Assembly (NCBI GenBank): GCA_025094145.1 | Contig: JALLLS010000049.1 | Span: 62,001-126,000 of the forward strand | DNA: 64,000 bases | Direction: 5' to 3' | From: Spinellus fusiger | Taxonomy: Eukaryota; Mucoromycota; Mucoromycetes; Mucorales; Phycomycetaceae | Shown here: in pieces, positions 49,205 to 57,950 of the stretch | How the letters are laid out: each line of letters starts with the position of its first letter | How positions within the stretch are numbered: the first letter of the stretch is position 1 | Program-made: the position numbers and the translations under genes | The notes under the pieces: generated by a model | Told to the model about the DNA's origin: nothing | The model's database searches: none | The model's input: the letters and a program-made list of their open reading frames with translations, nothing else

Positions 49205-50805
49205 CTTGAACCAGGAAAGTTTATCGGAGTTAAAACATTTCAATAGTGTAAAATAAAATGATTTTACCCGCTATGTTTATATCTAAATATCTTTAGGATA
49301 TAAAAAGAGTTAGACAAATGTCAACAGTTCAGTGAGATACAATGATAGTTTATATAAAATAAACCAAATAATATTTAAACAATCACTCAATATTTTACCA
49401 GTATTATGGTTATACTCTAGCGATAACTAAAGAAAAAATGTTTTATTTTTTATTTTATTTTCTAGCTTGATTCAGGAGTACCAGAAGATGAAGAGTGTTT
49501 ATGTCTTGATACATGTCTACAGAATCTTGTTAATTGGCCAGAAGTTTATATTTTACTTTCAATAATACGCCTTAAATGTATATGATAGTTAACTATACTA
49601 TATTTGCTTTGTTAAAAAATGATTGAAGATTTGAGTACATCTTGAGATTTTCCAAGTAAAGATAGCAAACTACCTTCACGGACTCTGTTTTCCTTGGCAT
49701 AATAAGAGCAAAATAATTCATTTACTTCTGCTCTAGAAGATAGATAGTATGAAAAATTGGCAATCATGACAGCTGAATCAGGGTAAAGAAATAAATATTT
49801 CCCATGCAATTGGATGTCTTCTGGTTTCAGACATTGTCTCAAGTGTATGAGCTTTCTGGACTCTATTTTTATAGCACACTAATGACCTGTGTATCTGAAA
49901 ATACGCCTATCTTCTCTTGTACTAATTTCATACATGAAAAACAACACATCTCTTCTTCATAGATCAATGGGTACACACTTTTCTACAGCTTTCTTAAGTT
50001 TCTTGTGCTAAAGTTTATCTATAGACTGTCATTCATCATCGCCAACATTAAGGGAACGTCTACCACTACTACTAATACTCTTCTTTCTGTGTTTCTTGAT
50101 TCTGTTTTACAGAGGAAATACCAACATCCTCTGTGTGGATCCAACCATAGCATTTTATAGACTTGAGATTGTCTTGGTCTTCTAGTACCTTTCAGGAAAT
50201 ATCTACATCTTCAGCCCAAGATGTGTGATTCTTCTGATCTAGTGACTGGAAGTAAGAGCTAGTGCCAGATGTCTTTATTGATGGAAGACATTTATTTCCT
50301 TATCACTATGGCCACTCTTTTTTCATATCTTTTTTTCTTTTTCTTGAGATAAGTGTGAGTGAACAATTCACCACTCTATTAGAGCCAAGAACACTTCTCT
50401 GTAGACATTCAGCTATACATAGTGCTCTAAATCAGCATTTATATCCCCATTTAACTCATGGATATATACTTTGTAAGACTGTATGTATGTATAAGAGGTG
50501 TGTTGACATTATATACAAAGTTATTCGATGTCTGTATAGATTTTTATTTTTATTTTTGTTATAAACAATGTTAAACACTATAAATATATCAAATTTTAGA
50601 CACTTAACGTGGTAGACTTAACCTTTTGATACAGCAAAGTGAGCTAATATGGATTGATTAGGCTTCCTTTTCTGTTGCAGGCCTTTAACATGAAATGAAA
50701 TGACAGGATTTCTTGTAGATGATAAAAATTTGATCTGAACCTTTCATATTTTTATACAATGTCAATTACATACACTATTTCCGGAAATTATTCGTTTAAT
50801 TTTTG
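49205..50805. other. Intergenic region
   Basis: A/T-rich spacer upstream of the G-patch gene. One minus-strand frame (49612-49842, including LRQCLKPEDIQLHGKYLFLY and further codons) looks coding-like but matches nothing known to me and has no start or splice context. Nothing else is supported. Confidence 0.4.
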
Positions 50806-51844
50806 AAAATAGTGTATTGACTTTGCAATTGAATGTTATAAAGAAGGCTATAAAAAGAATAAAATAAAATCAGAATCCTTTCAATATTACAAACTAGCTG
50901 TCCCTATGTTTCTCTTAACATAATATATTATTCTCAAGCTCACAGTAGAGAGTGCATAGCAATGTCTAAAGTGTGTTGATTATATAACTCACGAAATTAA
51001 TTCCAGTGGTTAATTTCCACAAAAGAAGACCGAATTTACATATAGTAAGAGTGCTATAGACATTTATTCATTGAATATCTATCACTTCTTCAACAAAAAC
51101 ATTATTTTAACTGGTCTTAACTGTGATGTTCAATAGAAACAAAATATTGTTTATAAGATTGTAGAAGAGTGAAGACTAAAGTGTAATGCATCAATAGAAT
51201 AAAGAGACGTTATTTGTTTTGATATTCCTCTCCTTTTGTTATTTTATATAGAAAACAATAACCTAACACTTAAATACTTGTTAATATGAGCATGACTGAG
51301 CAAGATAGTGTAATACTACTTATTGAACAAAATAAAAGAAGAAAGTGATAGACACTACCAAAGGCTATTATATATATATGTATATATATATATAAGGTAG
51401 ATAGTGTCTTTATATGAGCTATGGCTTATTCTAATGTACAAGACACTCATTTTATTGTTATTAGGCAAGTAAAGTATCTTTTCAAGTCAGTCCCAAATGG
51501 TCTTTTCTTTTACAAGGTCAATGGTGTCTAGGGTGTATTCCCAAGTATAGTTATCTTTCCTCCTAGGATAAATAATCATACTTTTAATATTTATAGTCTA
51601 TTGATATTATATTGATTCTCCTAGGCATTAAACATATTAATAGATGTTGATATCTATAGTATTATAATAAACAATACAGTTTGCAAATAATACAACTTGA
51701 TAGTGAAGTATTCTACGAAAAGAAATATGAATTTGAGTACCTTCTGATCTTCAATATTTAAACTCCAAGGGTTAAGGGAAATGAAATAGATTCCTTAAAT
51801 GGAAGATATTATCCCCGCTTTGAAACCAGAAAACCTTAGGTGTA
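50806..51844 (-). mobile_element. Internally deleted copy of the CMC/Plavaka-like element
   Basis: The left half (about 50806-51160) follows the transposase 3' region of the element at 1581-5719: TTGACTTTGCAATTGAA, then a worn version of the 1880-2080 coding end. The right half (about 51165-51844) follows 4920-5719, including GATAGACACTACCAA, CAAGTCAGTC, a GGTGTATTC block and the terminal CTTAGGTGTA. About 2.9 kb of transposase sequence is missing between them. The outermost left end is not clear. Orientation is the same as the 1581-5719 element. Confidence 0.72.
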
Positions 51845-52184
51845 TAGTGAGACATATTATTGTTATTGTTATACTATGAACAGATCTTTGAAATGGAAAA
51901 GAATATTCTCACCACCCTTTGGTATAAAGATGATCAATATCAATTGTATTTATATAAATTATAGACTGTATTAAACAAATGAGTAATCTCTAGCTCATTA
52001 ATAGAGCATAGAGCCGCAGTCTTTTTTTTTATATACTCATGTAGTTATTTTTTTTAAAATAATAATAATAATCAAACAGACACACTATCTCTGATTCAAT
52101 ATGATATCCATTGACTCATTTATTATCATTAATATTCTCTAATTTAGAATTTTAATATATTAAGTCTAGCCTTTAAAATTACTA
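51845..52184. other. Short spacer between two related elements
   Basis: About 340 bp of A/T-rich DNA with ATT and AAT runs. No feature is visible. Confidence 0.5.
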
Positions 52185-52899
52185 CACACCAGGAGATTTT
52201 TCTGGCTTTTAGGCGGTGATATCTCCTTCCTTTTACGTCTAAAAATCTCTTGCCTTTTATGGACCTGTGTTTAAAATCAAAAGAGTTACAAGTATCCAAA
52301 TAATTGTTTCCTTTTGTAGTATACCTCAATATCAAATTGTATTATCAAAATATAGTGTTTATGAATAAAATTGTTTATTGTAATAGTATAGATAATACTA
52401 TATTATGACTATAGCCACTGCCCAAGTGCATTCCCTCATAGCAATAGAATCCACAACCTAAAAACCCAGTTCTTTGTTCTTGGAAGATAGATAACTATGC
52501 TCAGTAGTACACCCTAGAGACCCTAGATAGTACAGAAGACCACCTAAGACTGACTTGAGAAGAGTCTTAACTTGCCTAATAATAATACATTGAGTGTCTT
52601 GTGGAATACAATGAGCACAAGCCCAGATGAAGACACTGCCTACCTTTTTATCTCAAGAATACCCTCTAGTGGTGTCTACAACTTCTTTCTATTGTTTTTC
52701 TTTGTTAATAATGGCACATTACCTTGATTAGTTATGCTCATCTTGACAAGTACTTGGGCGTTAAGTTGTATGTGCAGTGTGAAAAATAACAAGATAATAA
52801 CAAGAACAAAGAATAAAAAATATTCTTATTTTGGTGAGGTAACAGTCCCATGCAAAAAATGAGTAGACGGCAAATCAATTTTCTATTTTTATTTTACAG

Positions 52900-53330
52900 T
52901 TTATTCAAACAATGAAAACCAGCCAACTCTTAGCCAAGAACATGAAGATAGCCCTATCAAAAGAAGAGAGCATGCTATATTTATTAGAGGTCAAATCACA
53001 GGACAATGGAAAAGATGTACTAATTATCAAGAGATTGCTGAAAATGTCGACATCCTAAAGAGTACAATAGACAAGAGTGTCCTATTGTATAAAAACAAAG
53101 GCACATTTCAACTCAAAATGCATACAGGAAGACCTGAAAAAGTGTCATCTACTTCAAAACTGGCTATCATTTTGTCTATTCGCAGAAACTCTATACAAAT
53201 AATTGCATATGATTTGAGAAATATGAATGATGTAAAAACAAGGTTGTTTGGTCTGACGAATCCTGTTTTACAGTTGTGTACAATAATAAAGGGACTAGAG
53301 TGATTAAAAATAAAGACTCTGTTACAAAAC
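52900..53330 (+). pseudogene. Tc1/mariner transposase fragment nested in the Fanzor element
   Basis: The helix-turn-helix region reads ITGQWKRCTNYQEIAENVD, then LYKNKGTFQLKMHTGRPEK, the usual Tc1 hook with GRPxK. After a deletion and frame change, VWSDESCFTVVYNNKGTRVI follows with the first catalytic Asp, ending at a stop near 53330. The remaining acid blocks are missing or unreadable. The fragment lies upstream of the Fanzor gene and may be a nested insertion. Confidence 0.75.
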
Positions 53331-53655
53331 ACTGAGCAATATCTTTATAATAAAAATGTAGACAATCAATTAAAGAACAACTATTCCAAATCCCGTGTTA
53401 TTCCATGAACCTTTTATTATGAACATCTTTGACTATAGATGTACCTTTATTCTTCAAAATAAAATAAAAAGAATTCTGTCAACTCATTGTATGGGACTGT
53501 ATATGTGCATAGAAAACCCATGGGATTCACAGTTTCCATTGATAGATATACAAGTTTTATGCTTTAGCACAACTTCTTGGTTTTCAAATCATGGATTGAA
53601 TCATATTACGGATTGAATCAATGGCATGTGGAAACCAATTATAAAACAGAAATAG

Positions 53656-53664
53656 TATAAAAAG
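53656..53664 (+). promoter_or_regulatory. Candidate TATA box of the Fanzor gene
   Basis: TATAAAAAG lies 34-42 bp upstream of the ATG at 53698, the first ATG before the Fanzor frame. Position and sequence fit a TATA box; no test is possible here. Confidence 0.4.
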
Positions 53665-53697
53665 AAAAGGTCAACTCGTCTTTATTTTATTTTCTTC

Positions 53698-55848
53698 ATG
53701 GAACCTGCTCTAAAGATGATAGCAGTGAAAAGCTCAATCACTGGTATTGGATGAAAACCGCAGTATCTTTTTGCCGCTCAAGACACTTGTATCTATTGTC
53801 CATATTCTTGTAACGCATACATTCGCTTTTATAAAGTACATATTCATTCAAGAATTGGAAAATAACCCTGCCTTTGCTCTGGAGGATTTTGCCAATGTTG
53901 ATTTTTACAGTGAGGTCTTTTTGTCGCTTCTTCAGAGTTACAAGCCAAATAGACAAGCAAATTATTCAAAGTCAAGAACCAACCGAGAACTTATCAACAG
54001 CCATCGAGACATGTACTTTCAACACAGTCTATATGAGCCAGTCAGTTTAAAGTATGCCTTTCAAATAGCCATGTAGGAAGCAAGGAAAATAAACACAGCG
54101 TACCTCAATGGTGTCTCATTACACTTTAGAAACAAGCTGTGCATGTTATTAAACATACTTTTGAAAAAGAATGAACGAATAAAGACGGTAAAGGAAGAAA
54201 TGAAGAAAAAGGGCAGCACAGAGACGGAAGTATCAGCTGCAGTAAAGGATATTGTTGAACAATGCAGTAAAATCAAAACAGCCATTTCGTCTGGAAAAAT
54301 CGACAATCTACCAAAAGAATTCCTCTCTACTCATGATATTGATATGATTCATGATATCTTTAGCTCTTATCCCATGAACTACCCATTTTCCAAAGACTCT
54401 GTTTACTATGACTGCAAAGCAAACACCCCAAAGCATGTGAAGGCTTATTATAAGCTATCAAGCATGTGTGAAGTCCTTCAAGACAAGCCTCTCAACTGTT
54501 TTCCGCTGAGAAGAACATTCATACCATCTTATATGACAATAGATACGCGTATATTGAACACCCATCTATTGAAAAGACCTATTATCAGCCATTTGGACAA
54601 AGATAGAGTGTGGGGGGCTGTTATTGATACCACAACAAAAGCAATGAAGCCGCAGGGTGAAAGAAATGCAATGAAGTTTAGGGGAATGGTGATGACTGAC
54701 GGTGTTGGTGTATCTGTGTTGAAACAAAACCATGATACAAAAAAGGTGGCGGTGGAAGAATCAAGAAAGAAACAAAGGAACTTGATGAATTCCAATACAT
54801 TGAAGATTTGGGGAAAAAAGAATTGGCAGCTAGTATCGGCAAGTGTGTGTTGATTGACCCTGGTCGTCGTGATATACTTTATTGCATGCATGAAGATAGC
54901 ACTTTAGAGAACAAAAGAACATACCGATACACTAGCAATCAAAGTGCTATTGAAAACAAGTTGAGAAATTTCAGGAAGCTCCGTGAGAACTTGAAGCCTG
55001 ATGAAGTGAAAGCAGCTGAATTATCCATGTCAGGACATACATCTTCAACAGTCAATTGTGAAAGGTTTGCAAGATACCTCGAGGAAAGAGCCAGAGTTAC
55101 CCCAGTGTTGCATAACTATTATTTAAATGAAGATACTCCTGCTGTGGAAAACCGGAATGCCAATGGTTTACTCCCATTTCGTAAAATGAAGCTTTCAAGC
55201 TTTATTAATCAGCAACAATCAGACAAACGGCTAGCTAGAAATCTTCGAAGAAAGTTTGGCGATGATGCTGTAATGGTGATTGGCAATTGGTCTGTAGGAA
55301 ACACAAAGTTCCATGAACCAGTGAGAGGTGTTGGAATAAGAAGAATATTGAAGAAAGAAGGGTTCAAGGTGTTCCTTATTGATGAGTTCAAAACATCTAT
55401 TTTTTGTCCTTCTTGTAAGAACGGTGAGCTTGAGAAATTCAAGAAAGTACAAAACCCAAGACCCTTCAGAAGAGAGAAGAGCCCCACAGTGACATGTCAT
55501 GGTCTTTTAAGGTAAAAATATTCTTTTTTTTTCTATAAAAGTCAAAGAAAAGGCTAATAGGTTTATTATTTTTTATTTTTATTTAGGTGCAAAAACCAAC
55601 AATGTTTGAAGATCATGACCAAAACTGCTGGAGTTTCTGATGAGATAATTTCTCAACGCTTTTGGAATCGGGACATGGCAGCAACATTGAACTTTTGTCA
55701 TGTTTTTTTTGGACTACGAGAGGAAGGCAAGCGACCCAAGCGCTTTTGTCGATCCAAGAAAGTACAGTCTGTTGGTACCAAAAGAAAGGAGTCACCCTTA
55801 GCTAGTAGTAGTCGATCCACCAAAACATCAAAAAAGAATCCGGTGTAG
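53698..55848 (+). pseudogene. Fanzor: eukaryotic TnpB-like RNA-guided endonuclease (damaged copy)
   Basis: Fanzor proteins are eukaryotic relatives of transposon TnpB and Cas12 that cut DNA guided by an element-encoded RNA. The RuvC centre is readable: Asp-I in VLIDPGRRD (54856), Glu-II in LIDEFKTS (55384) and Asp-III in RFWNRDMAAT (55672). Between II and III lies the zinc-finger region CPSC (55405-55416) ... CHGLLRCKNQQC. A 75-nt intron (55512-55586) splits it. The N-terminal recognition region is recognisable (HTFAFIKYIFIQELE; SLLQSYKPNRQANYS). Damage: in-frame TAG at 54074-54076; a one-base frame change at the A6 run 54739-54744; a possible frame break near 53750, because ATG 53698 opens another frame that ends in TGA. 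Without these the protein would be about 680-690 residues. The family call is firm. Confidence 0.9.
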
Positions 55849-56098
55849 TTATCGCTGTACTATATCAAGATACAAATGTCTTTTTGAACCATACTACATT
55901 TCTATACTATAATTTCCCTAAGGATATACTAATACTTTATGAAGATAGTGTAGCTATTGCTAGGATAGGCAGACAGAGTTTGAAATAGTCCATTTAGACA
56001 GCGAAAATACCCTTTTAAAACACATCAGCCAATCATAAGAATATTGCGATTTTATTGTCCGTGTATTTACTTTTATATCCCAAAAATCTTTAGGTGTG
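55849..56098 (+). other. Candidate guide-RNA (omega/fRNA) region
   Basis: In characterised Fanzor and TnpB systems the guide RNA overlaps or follows the 3' end of the nuclease gene and ends at the transposon end. Here 250 bp lie between the Fanzor stop and the right terminus, of which the last 80 bp are the conserved element end. No promoter or fold was proved. The call is positional inference only. Confidence 0.3.
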
Positions 56099-56279
56099 TA
56101 TTATAGCTAATACTACAGCCACACCCAATTGAATTGAATACTTTTGAAAATAAATATTAAGACAAAATATATAAGACATGTTCAATATTAAATAAAACAC
56201 TACACATTTGATCTAGAAGCTTCAAAATTAAACTCAACAAAGATAAACATCTTTAATGATTGAAAATAATAATAATAAT

Positions 56280-57044
56280 AATATAGTTAATATTTTGTAT
56301 AGTCTTCTTTGGCATCAATGACTGACTAGCATCTATCTGTCCGTCATACTTTGAATTTATTGCTATGCAAGTTCAATACCAACCCTCTTCCACTCTTCTC
56401 CAAGTAGAGCCTTCAAACCTTCTACATTAGTAATAGATACCTTTATTTCTTCAATTCGTATTTCCAAAGCCCACTAGACATGTTCAATTGGGTTCAAGTC
56501 AAGACATTGTGTGTGATAGTAATCAAAGCCTCGAATCTAATGCGTCTTTCTTCACTATCTAGCATAGGCCCCAATATGACAGCTAGCACACTTGCTCAGT
56601 CAATTCATTTCTCTTTTTATTCTAAAGTCAAGGCCAGAGCGTGCTTTACATAAAAGGATCCAAACACTAACTGATTACAGTAGTTAATAAGGGTGTTTCT
56701 ACATACATCAACTTAAATCTTCAACATTTCCAATTTCAACTGATTATATGGGGCAAATGGACCCTTTCTAATGACCTTTTCCAAGTGTCTGAGGTCCTTC
56801 TCACTGGCTTTTTATGTTTTAAATGACTCCTTAAACGTAATCGTGACCCACGTTCTTTGATGTTTCTAATAATATTTTGAACTATAGACCTTTTCATTTC
56901 AACTACACTTGTAATGACAGTCAATTTTAATCCAGTCTTCAACAGGTAACAAATGCCCTGTAGCTTTTTATTTTCTTCTTTATTATATTCTCCACGAGTA
57001 TGAGTTGCTAAAAATGTATATGACATGTTGTGTTGGTCTAACAC
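56280..57044 (-). pseudogene. Tc1/mariner transposase, decayed
   Basis: Read on the minus strand, the start includes a helix-turn-helix part (SVVEMKRSIVQNIIRNIKER) and a basic hook (KHKKPVRRTSDTW). This is followed by PYNQLKLEML. After a gap come YYHTQCLDLNPIEHVWWALE (last acid block, with one indel), the helix GLKALLGEEWKRVGIEL, and SMTDR near the end. Several stops interrupt it, and the first and second catalytic blocks are not found. It sits between the Fanzor element and the third MITE. Confidence 0.78.
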
Positions 57045-57151
57045 TATTTGGAAAGAAAAAGAGTTTTATGCAAAAATAATAGTATTGTTTTATGAGGTTT
57101 TTGGTAATTATTAAATTCAATTGGGTGTGGATGTATTTATTCAAGGATTGA

Positions 57152-57950
57152 TACAGTTCAAAGTATTTTTAATTTTAGGTGTAAATGCTATTTGCGCATT
57201 GAGCATATTAGCCACTTTATCATAGCTTTTGAACAATTAAGATATACATATAAACACTATAAATACCCAAATGAGGGAAGAATAAATTGAAGAAAAAAGA
57301 AACAGAAGGACAGGCAAATATAAAACCTCAAATGAGGGGGAAAAATAATGAAAAATCAGAAATGTATAGAAATGATAATTATGAATAGACATCCAAAAAG
57401 GCCATAATGTCAGCAAAGAAACCAGGATACCAAAAAAAAAGATAACTATCATCCTATGGTAATCCGAAAACCAACGAGGGATACTTAGAGCAACTCGGAC
57501 AATCCTGAGAACACAACTACAGCAACTACACTTGCAGCTTCTGGCTTTTCTGAACGGGTTATGAATGGGTGGTAGAGAAGTCCTTGCACTCTATGATAGT
57601 GTTGGTATTCCTACTCAACACAACCATCAGCAGCCTCAATGAGTAAGCTACCAGATGATGGCTCTATTTAGGGTACATTGTTGCTCTCTAATTTGGCTCA
57701 AGCATTGTCACACCCCGTCTACCCACCATTGCCTTTGAGAATCTTGTGGAGTCAAGCCCAAACTAATGTCTATTCATTGTCATTTCTATACATTTCTCAT
57801 TTTTCATTATTTTTCCCCCTCATTTGAGTATTTAGTGTTTATATGTATATCTTGATTATTCAAAAGGATCTCATAAGGTGACTATTAGGCTCAATGCGCA
57901 AATAGCATTTACACCTAAAATAATAATAAAATAATATACTCTGCACTGTA
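57152..57950 (-). mobile_element. MITE, copy 3 (diverged)
   Basis: This copy aligns over its whole length with the MITEs at 31889-32623 and 33736-34469, in the orientation of the latter. It begins TACAGTTCAAAGTATTTTT and ends CTCTGCACTGTA. An extra 50-60 bp near 57270-57330 makes it about 800 bp. It is more diverged than the other two are from each other, so it is an older insertion. Confidence 0.85.

Follow-up and report, generated by a model that had tools for sequence, protein, structure and literature searches.

The DNA analysed here is a stretch of 64,000 nucleotides from the Spinellus fusiger genome (contig JALLLS010000049.1, positions 62,001 to 126,000; hereafter the window), and it holds a decayed Fanzor1 gene (53698-55848, + strand) that is the cargo of a larger mobile unit (52185-56098). 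Fanzor is a DNA-cutting enzyme of eukaryotes that is guided by RNA. In the reading that we consider highly probable, this dead Fanzor1 copy belongs to a TA-flanked element without a transposase of its own, which would be moved in trans by a transposase from elsewhere, and the living members of the family would most likely be SpuFz1-like. Fanzor1 is already known as a kind of gene and the window gene is a new family member; the part worth following, more than the gene itself, is a motif in the left flank that is specific to the Fanzor-bearing family. Gene-bearing elements and gene-less ghosts that share ends and differ in the motif beside the left end bear on why eukaryotic transposons carry Fanzors: they allow a direct test of (i) whether or not the left motif is the TAM of the nuclease, and (ii) whether or not the cutting of empty sites maintains the elements.

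Fanzor1 genes were described in 2013 from Mariner elements and from fungi, among them Rhizopus, Mucor and Phycomyces (PMC3627910), RNA-guided cutting and ghosts in 2023 (PMC10432273), and the Fanzor1 of Parasitella parasitica (PpFz1) in 2024 (PMC11423790). A search of the open-licence literature for Fanzor together with Rhizopus or Mucor returned only PMC11423790 and PMC3627910, and none of the open-licence papers listed in further searches was, by its title, on the window Fanzor family.

Identity and structure of the Fanzor1 gene

The protein pieces encoded by 53698-55848 were searched separately, and three of them matched the solved PpFz1: 54077-54850 with E=2e-55 (PDB 9cf0), 54736-55512 with E=1.8e-69 (SpuFz1, 1.6e-28; GtFz1, 7.5e-4) and the second exon with E=3.3e-4. 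In L032, a near-identical copy, an open frame of 479 residues, taken without modification, matched PpFz1 with E=6.4e-128. The first piece (53729-54073) had no significant match in Pfam, the one collection against which it was scanned. The closest proteins among about 5.8 billion were from Rhizopus (66% over the full length), followed by Helicostylum, Gilbertella, Pilaira and others, which marks the genome as Mucorales-like. These matches confirm the identity proposed in the preliminary description, which had been made from the letters alone. In the profile search it had suggested as a check, generic TnpB/Cas12f profiles (Pfam, NCBIfam) matched the pieces weakly at E about 0.02 (TnpB profile, 0.022), below the cut-off. 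The same profiles did no better on relatives of Rhizopus and Parasitella origin in the database, and the solved Fanzor structures match strongly, so that the profile check is uninformative.

The three acidic RuvC codons lie where the preliminary description had placed them: GAC at 54856-54858 (IDPGRRDI), GAG at 55384-55386 (LIDEFKTS) and GAC at 55672 (NRDMAA), and phmmer aligns the encoded residues with the D, E and D of both PpFz1 and SpuFz1. Counted along the SpuFz1 fusion chain, the aligned residues are numbers 777, 935 and 1000, each 394 higher than the catalytic residues D383, E541 and D606 (PMC10432273), so that the alignment to published Fanzors places the D-E-D triad of the window gene on known catalytic positions. 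The zinc-finger region was likewise found between the second and the third acidic residue, with CPSC at 55405-55416 as its first half and CHGLLR/C....C (the slash marks the exon boundary) as its second. The arrangement follows the Fanzor1 motif D-X(125,275)-[TS][TS]XX-[C4 finger]-X(5,50)-RD (PMC3627910), with 178 residues separating D and TS, IF-CPSC after that, and 21 residues from the last Cys to RD.

A putative 75-nt GT..AG intron (55512-55586), also noticed in the preliminary description, would split the C4 finger at CHGLLR/CKNQQC, and its position is matched by the exon boundary of a sister Fanzor family in the same genome. Exon 1 (53698-55511) is broken, and exon 2 (55587-55848) carries CKNQQC and the third RuvC Asp and ends with the stop TAG at 55846-55848.

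PpFz1 (PDB 9cf0-9cf3; PMC11423790) was the best solved relative for every matching piece and has the same catalytic and zinc-finger motifs, but differs in a RuvC insertion of about 100 residues (FRI), which in the available part of that source is reported in Parasitella and Rhizopus only. Chain residues 990-1088 of PpFz1 have no counterpart in the window family, the alignment jumping from 989 to 1089 with three residues between.

The sister family (L015, L023 and others) is 50-59% identical in protein over the matched region and has the same intron position and catalytic motifs. Its right end, unlike that of the window family, is palindromic (...CTAGTA) with no CACACC end, and its left end was looked for and not found. 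L015 has an open 641-codon first-exon frame through CHGLLR and a second exon that is open past the third Asp, and the 663-codon frame of L023 shifts near the end of exon 1. The sister copies L015-L030 are 84-95% identical and end in the palindromic hairpin ...CTAGTA.

The mobile element, its probable nested passenger and its ghosts

The whole mobile element (52185-56098, + strand, 3914 bp) has the ends CACACC...GGTGTG with TA on both sides. Its left end is CACACCAGGAGATTTTTCTGGC and its right end is of the ...GGGATATAAAAG type, reading CCCAAAAATCTTTAGGTGTG; in another form, the left end is CACACCnnnAGATTTTTCTGGC and the right end corresponds to CACACCnnnAGATTTTTGGGATATA in reverse complement. 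Matches to other copies reach no further right than 56100 and no further left than about 52180-52184. Four full-length copies were found, namely the window copy and three others (L032, L033 and L034) that are 97.9%, 92.7% and 91.7% identical to it, all with different flanks. In the 38-Mb assembly, a search allowing one mismatch found 706 left ends, and one allowing two mismatches found 146 right ends of the type seen in the Fanzor-bearing element; the control gave 0 in each case. The gene is thus carried by a transposable element, which is repeated in the genome, has defined ends and is flanked by TA. Since a 98% identical full-length copy lies in unrelated flanks, recent movement of the element is supported.

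The TA target duplication of Tc1/mariner elements was present at 41 of 41 left ends examined (52183-52184 in the window copy) and at 23 of 25 right ends (56099-56100). No DDE transposase belonging to the element was found between the ends of the window copy, which hold only a nested remnant with ends of its own, and the transposase that moves the Fanzor-bearing family was not found. This internally deleted Tc1-like element (52842-53500, + strand) has the ends ACAGTCCCA ... TGGGACTGT, inverted and located at 52842 and 53492. Its remnant transposase ORF at 52863-53303 has an open match in L051, where the frame runs for 368 codons and contains DDE_3 and HTH domains. The remnant was considered as the element's own transposase, and this was dropped when its own inverted ends were found inside the element. 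That the element is a self-made Tc1-Fanzor transposon with a degenerate transposase would agree with its TA flanks, with the match of the remnant to an open Tc1-type frame and with the Mariner elements known to carry both genes (PMC3627910, available part). It is nevertheless unlikely, as the remnant is bounded by its own inner CAGTCCCA ends, the open Tc1 L051 carries those other ends, and the arm shared with gene-less elements stops next to where the remnant begins on its left, at positions 609-661 of the element. Because of its own inverted ends and of the shared arm that ends beside it, the remnant looks like a nested passenger.

Thirty loci were cut out around left ends; most of them had no Fanzor match, and several, e.g., L067, were non-coding elements of ~1.24 kb. 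In the terms of Saito et al., these gene-less elements are ghosts. They share with the Fanzor element a left arm of about 600-660 bp and a right end of about 150 bp, and have conserved bases outside the left end, as in the Spu-1-like combination of Fanzor and ghosts. The non-coding left arm of the window copy (52185-52841, + strand) is about 73-92% like that of ghosts such as L067 over its parts, and both ghost-shared parts are about 80-85% alike, so that the right end is not marked as more constrained than the arm. Three ghosts (L071, L074 and L075) have different left flanks and the same right flank, as if the elements had moved together with the DNA beyond their right ends.

Spu-1 of Spizellomyces punctatus (SpuFz1 and ghosts; PMC10432273) resembles this system in that elements with and without the gene have the same ends, conserved bases lie outside the left repeat, and no transposase between the ends is reported in the available part of the source. 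It differs in its ends, in its motif (CA there, TAC-TA or C-TA here) and in scale (134 ghost and 42 Fanzor loci there vs 706 left ends here). The Fanzor1 elements of the Tc/mariner type (PMC3627910) share with the window element the carriage of the gene as cargo, the TA target duplications and, in some of them (PUl-4), a missing transposase, but are by their names viral and oomycete-type; the Mucorales Fanzor1 examples named in the available part of that paper are of the MuDR type with 9-bp duplications.

Lesions shared between copies

Two in-frame stops (53752 and 54074) and two frame breaks (near 53768 and near 54738) interrupt the window copy, and these lesions were compared across fourteen copies, the window copy included. 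The stop at 54074 is common to six of the nine copies that hold the site, and the break near 54738 occurs in the window copy alone among the eight covering it. The stop at 53752 is absent from all seven other covering copies without a large deletion, and of the four copies with that deletion three have another stop at this site. Four of the seven other copies lack the break near 53768, and the remaining three differ in length at this run in other ways. One short deletion is common to L032 and L034 and another to L033 and L034, and an identical 1258-bp deletion is present in four loci (L041, L010, L011 and L012) whose right flanks are all different. Since lesions are shared between loci in different flanks, copies with a broken gene were moved and multiplied; movement of independently inserted copies therefore needs no intact Fanzor in cis.

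At least 149 Fanzor-matching stretches were found in the assembly (147 of 524 candidates scored), a lower bound within which several stretches can belong to one copy. No open copy of the window family was among these matches; matches with at least 67% identity were in no open frame longer than 491 codons, and exon 1 would need about 605. The preliminary description had concluded from a few single-site changes in the window copy that the family was recently active, and had proposed a genome-wide search for intact copies. Recent activity is supported for the element, as its 98% identical copy in unrelated flanks indicates, but is not supported for the gene: the damage is shared between loci, and the search yielded no intact copy of the window family among the at least 149 matches, for which reason present activity is unproven.

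Differences from the window copy, summed over L033-L038, number 73, 98 and 137 at codon positions 1, 2 and 3 in 54739-55512, and 56, 36 and 60 in 54077-54733. This pattern is a weak trace of past constraint, with mostly neutral drift. The third-position excess in the former stretch and the retained catalytic residues would be expected of a domesticated or still working host Fanzor gene. We give this explanation hardly any credence, because the present lesions (two stops and two frame breaks) argue strongly against a working host gene, the copies are repeated in different flanks, and the third-position excess is slight in 54077-54733.

Between the window copy and L032 (compared over 54077-55845) there are 13 differences at 657 sites in 54077-54733 and one at about 1100 sites in 54739-55845, which looks like gene conversion or a mosaic copy.

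The left-flank motif and the predicted TAM

Directly outside the left TA of the window copy stands TAC (52180-52182, + strand), the predicted outer part of a TAM. TAC-TA was found at 15 of 19 left ends of the Fanzor-bearing family, but at only 2 of the 91 left ends outside it and at none of 25 right ends (about six of the latter ghost-like); its background is 1.9% of TA in the window. The 19 family ends comprised 15 from cut-out loci and four from the left-end listing, leaving out copies without a left end in the cut-out locus and the left ends of L012 and L014, which are those of neighbouring elements. One left end without TAC among the 91 (C13:617297) is probably a family member, since a Fanzor match adjoins it, and counting it with the family would change the figures to 15 of 20 and 2 of 90; the first 100 of the 146 right ends were used, and further family members may hide among the 91. 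A C directly before TA was more widespread, at 75 of 100 left ends (out of 301 matching a pattern that required not-G at -6) vs 13 of 31 right ends (out of 179; Fisher p=0.001). Among the 91 other left ends it was found at 67, vs 18% of TA in the window.

In S. punctatus, a conserved CA precedes the left repeat at both Fanzor and ghost loci, and SpuFz1 has the TAM CATA (PMC10432273, available part). By this parallel, a TACTA-like TAM is predicted for the Fanzor-bearing family of the window, with TAC-TA as the suggested TAM of this family and C-TA as that of the ghosts. On the model of SpuFz1, the right end of living members would be transcribed into omegaRNA, with the DNA just outside the right end as its guide; the nuclease would cut empty sites that have a short motif (TAM), which after insertion would be left beside the left end, and the cutting of empty sites would lead to the element being copied back. 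The candidate omegaRNA region of the window copy is the ghost-shared right end of about 150 nt (55949-56098, + strand), and its predicted guide is the right flank (56101-56120, + strand).

Several results count against this SpuFz1-like scheme. Four of the 19 family copies lack TAC, and the right end, where ghosts share it, shows no stronger conservation than the left arm. The omegaRNA is proven in Spu-1, whereas the right end of the window element gave no sign of its structure or covariation: 84 and 196 of 200 shuffles folded at least as well as the single right-end strand, an alignment of 42 right ends and another of 31 trimmed ends, 27 of them distinct, had no fold or covariation signal, and 52100-56300 had no match in Rfam. 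The TAM of PpFz1 is given as ATN, not TACTA (PMC11423790, available part).

The main rival to the TAM reading, and a serious one, is that the motif is independent of Fanzor, the transposase preferring (TA)C-TA and always docking the left end on the C side. We rate this as a substantial possibility, if not quite the probable one: ghosts without a Fanzor gene also have C before TA at the frequency given above, and the ends are asymmetric in sequence, which makes a one-sided complex conceivable. It accords less well with the gene-bearing family and the ghosts sharing ends and differing in motif, although the ghosts may use a different transposase lineage, and with the same pattern in S. punctatus, where the TAM is proven (PMC10432273).

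A second explanation places TAC (or C-TA) in the element itself, the family left end being a few bases longer than the right. TAC at 15 of 19 copies would fit it, but TA stands directly before CACACC in 19 of 19 and three bases further out in 15 of 19. L034, moreover, is inserted in a sister Fanzor gene, and unoccupied homologues of that site have TAC at this point in 11 of 13 cases and TAA in two. This comparison concerns one insertion with a junction that differs by several bases, and is not decisive; with the TA counts it leaves the explanation improbable. Joined flanks of 11 other copies revealed no empty site in a search of low power, in which 40 of 463 candidates were scored in one search and most of those scored were repeats of the right flank of the window copy.

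If the TAM reading is extended to both groups, one genome would hold two TAM signatures on shared transposon ends (TAC-TA in the Fanzor family and C-TA in several hundred ghosts), the left-flank bases would record what each Fanzor lineage cuts, and the ghost right flanks would form a large set of trans-acting guides that includes the guide of the dead window copy. We advance this tentatively, with somewhat more doubt than belief.

The surroundings of the element contain further repeats. To its left, 50200-51846 recurs with 98% identity at C142:38347-39987, outside the window, and 51234-51739 within this repeat is 65-72% similar, in inverted orientation, to the left arms of the Fanzor element and the ghosts. 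Directly after the Fanzor element lies a separate Tc1-like element (56114-57135) with ends near CCACACCCAATTGAATT and a broken frame on the - strand, and the stretch just outside the Fanzor element's right end recurs after another right end of this type at C110:389146 (98%). Nested inverted repeats of 59-64 nt, 78-93% complementary, occupy 57167-57926, which suggests that this stretch may be another small inverted-repeat element.
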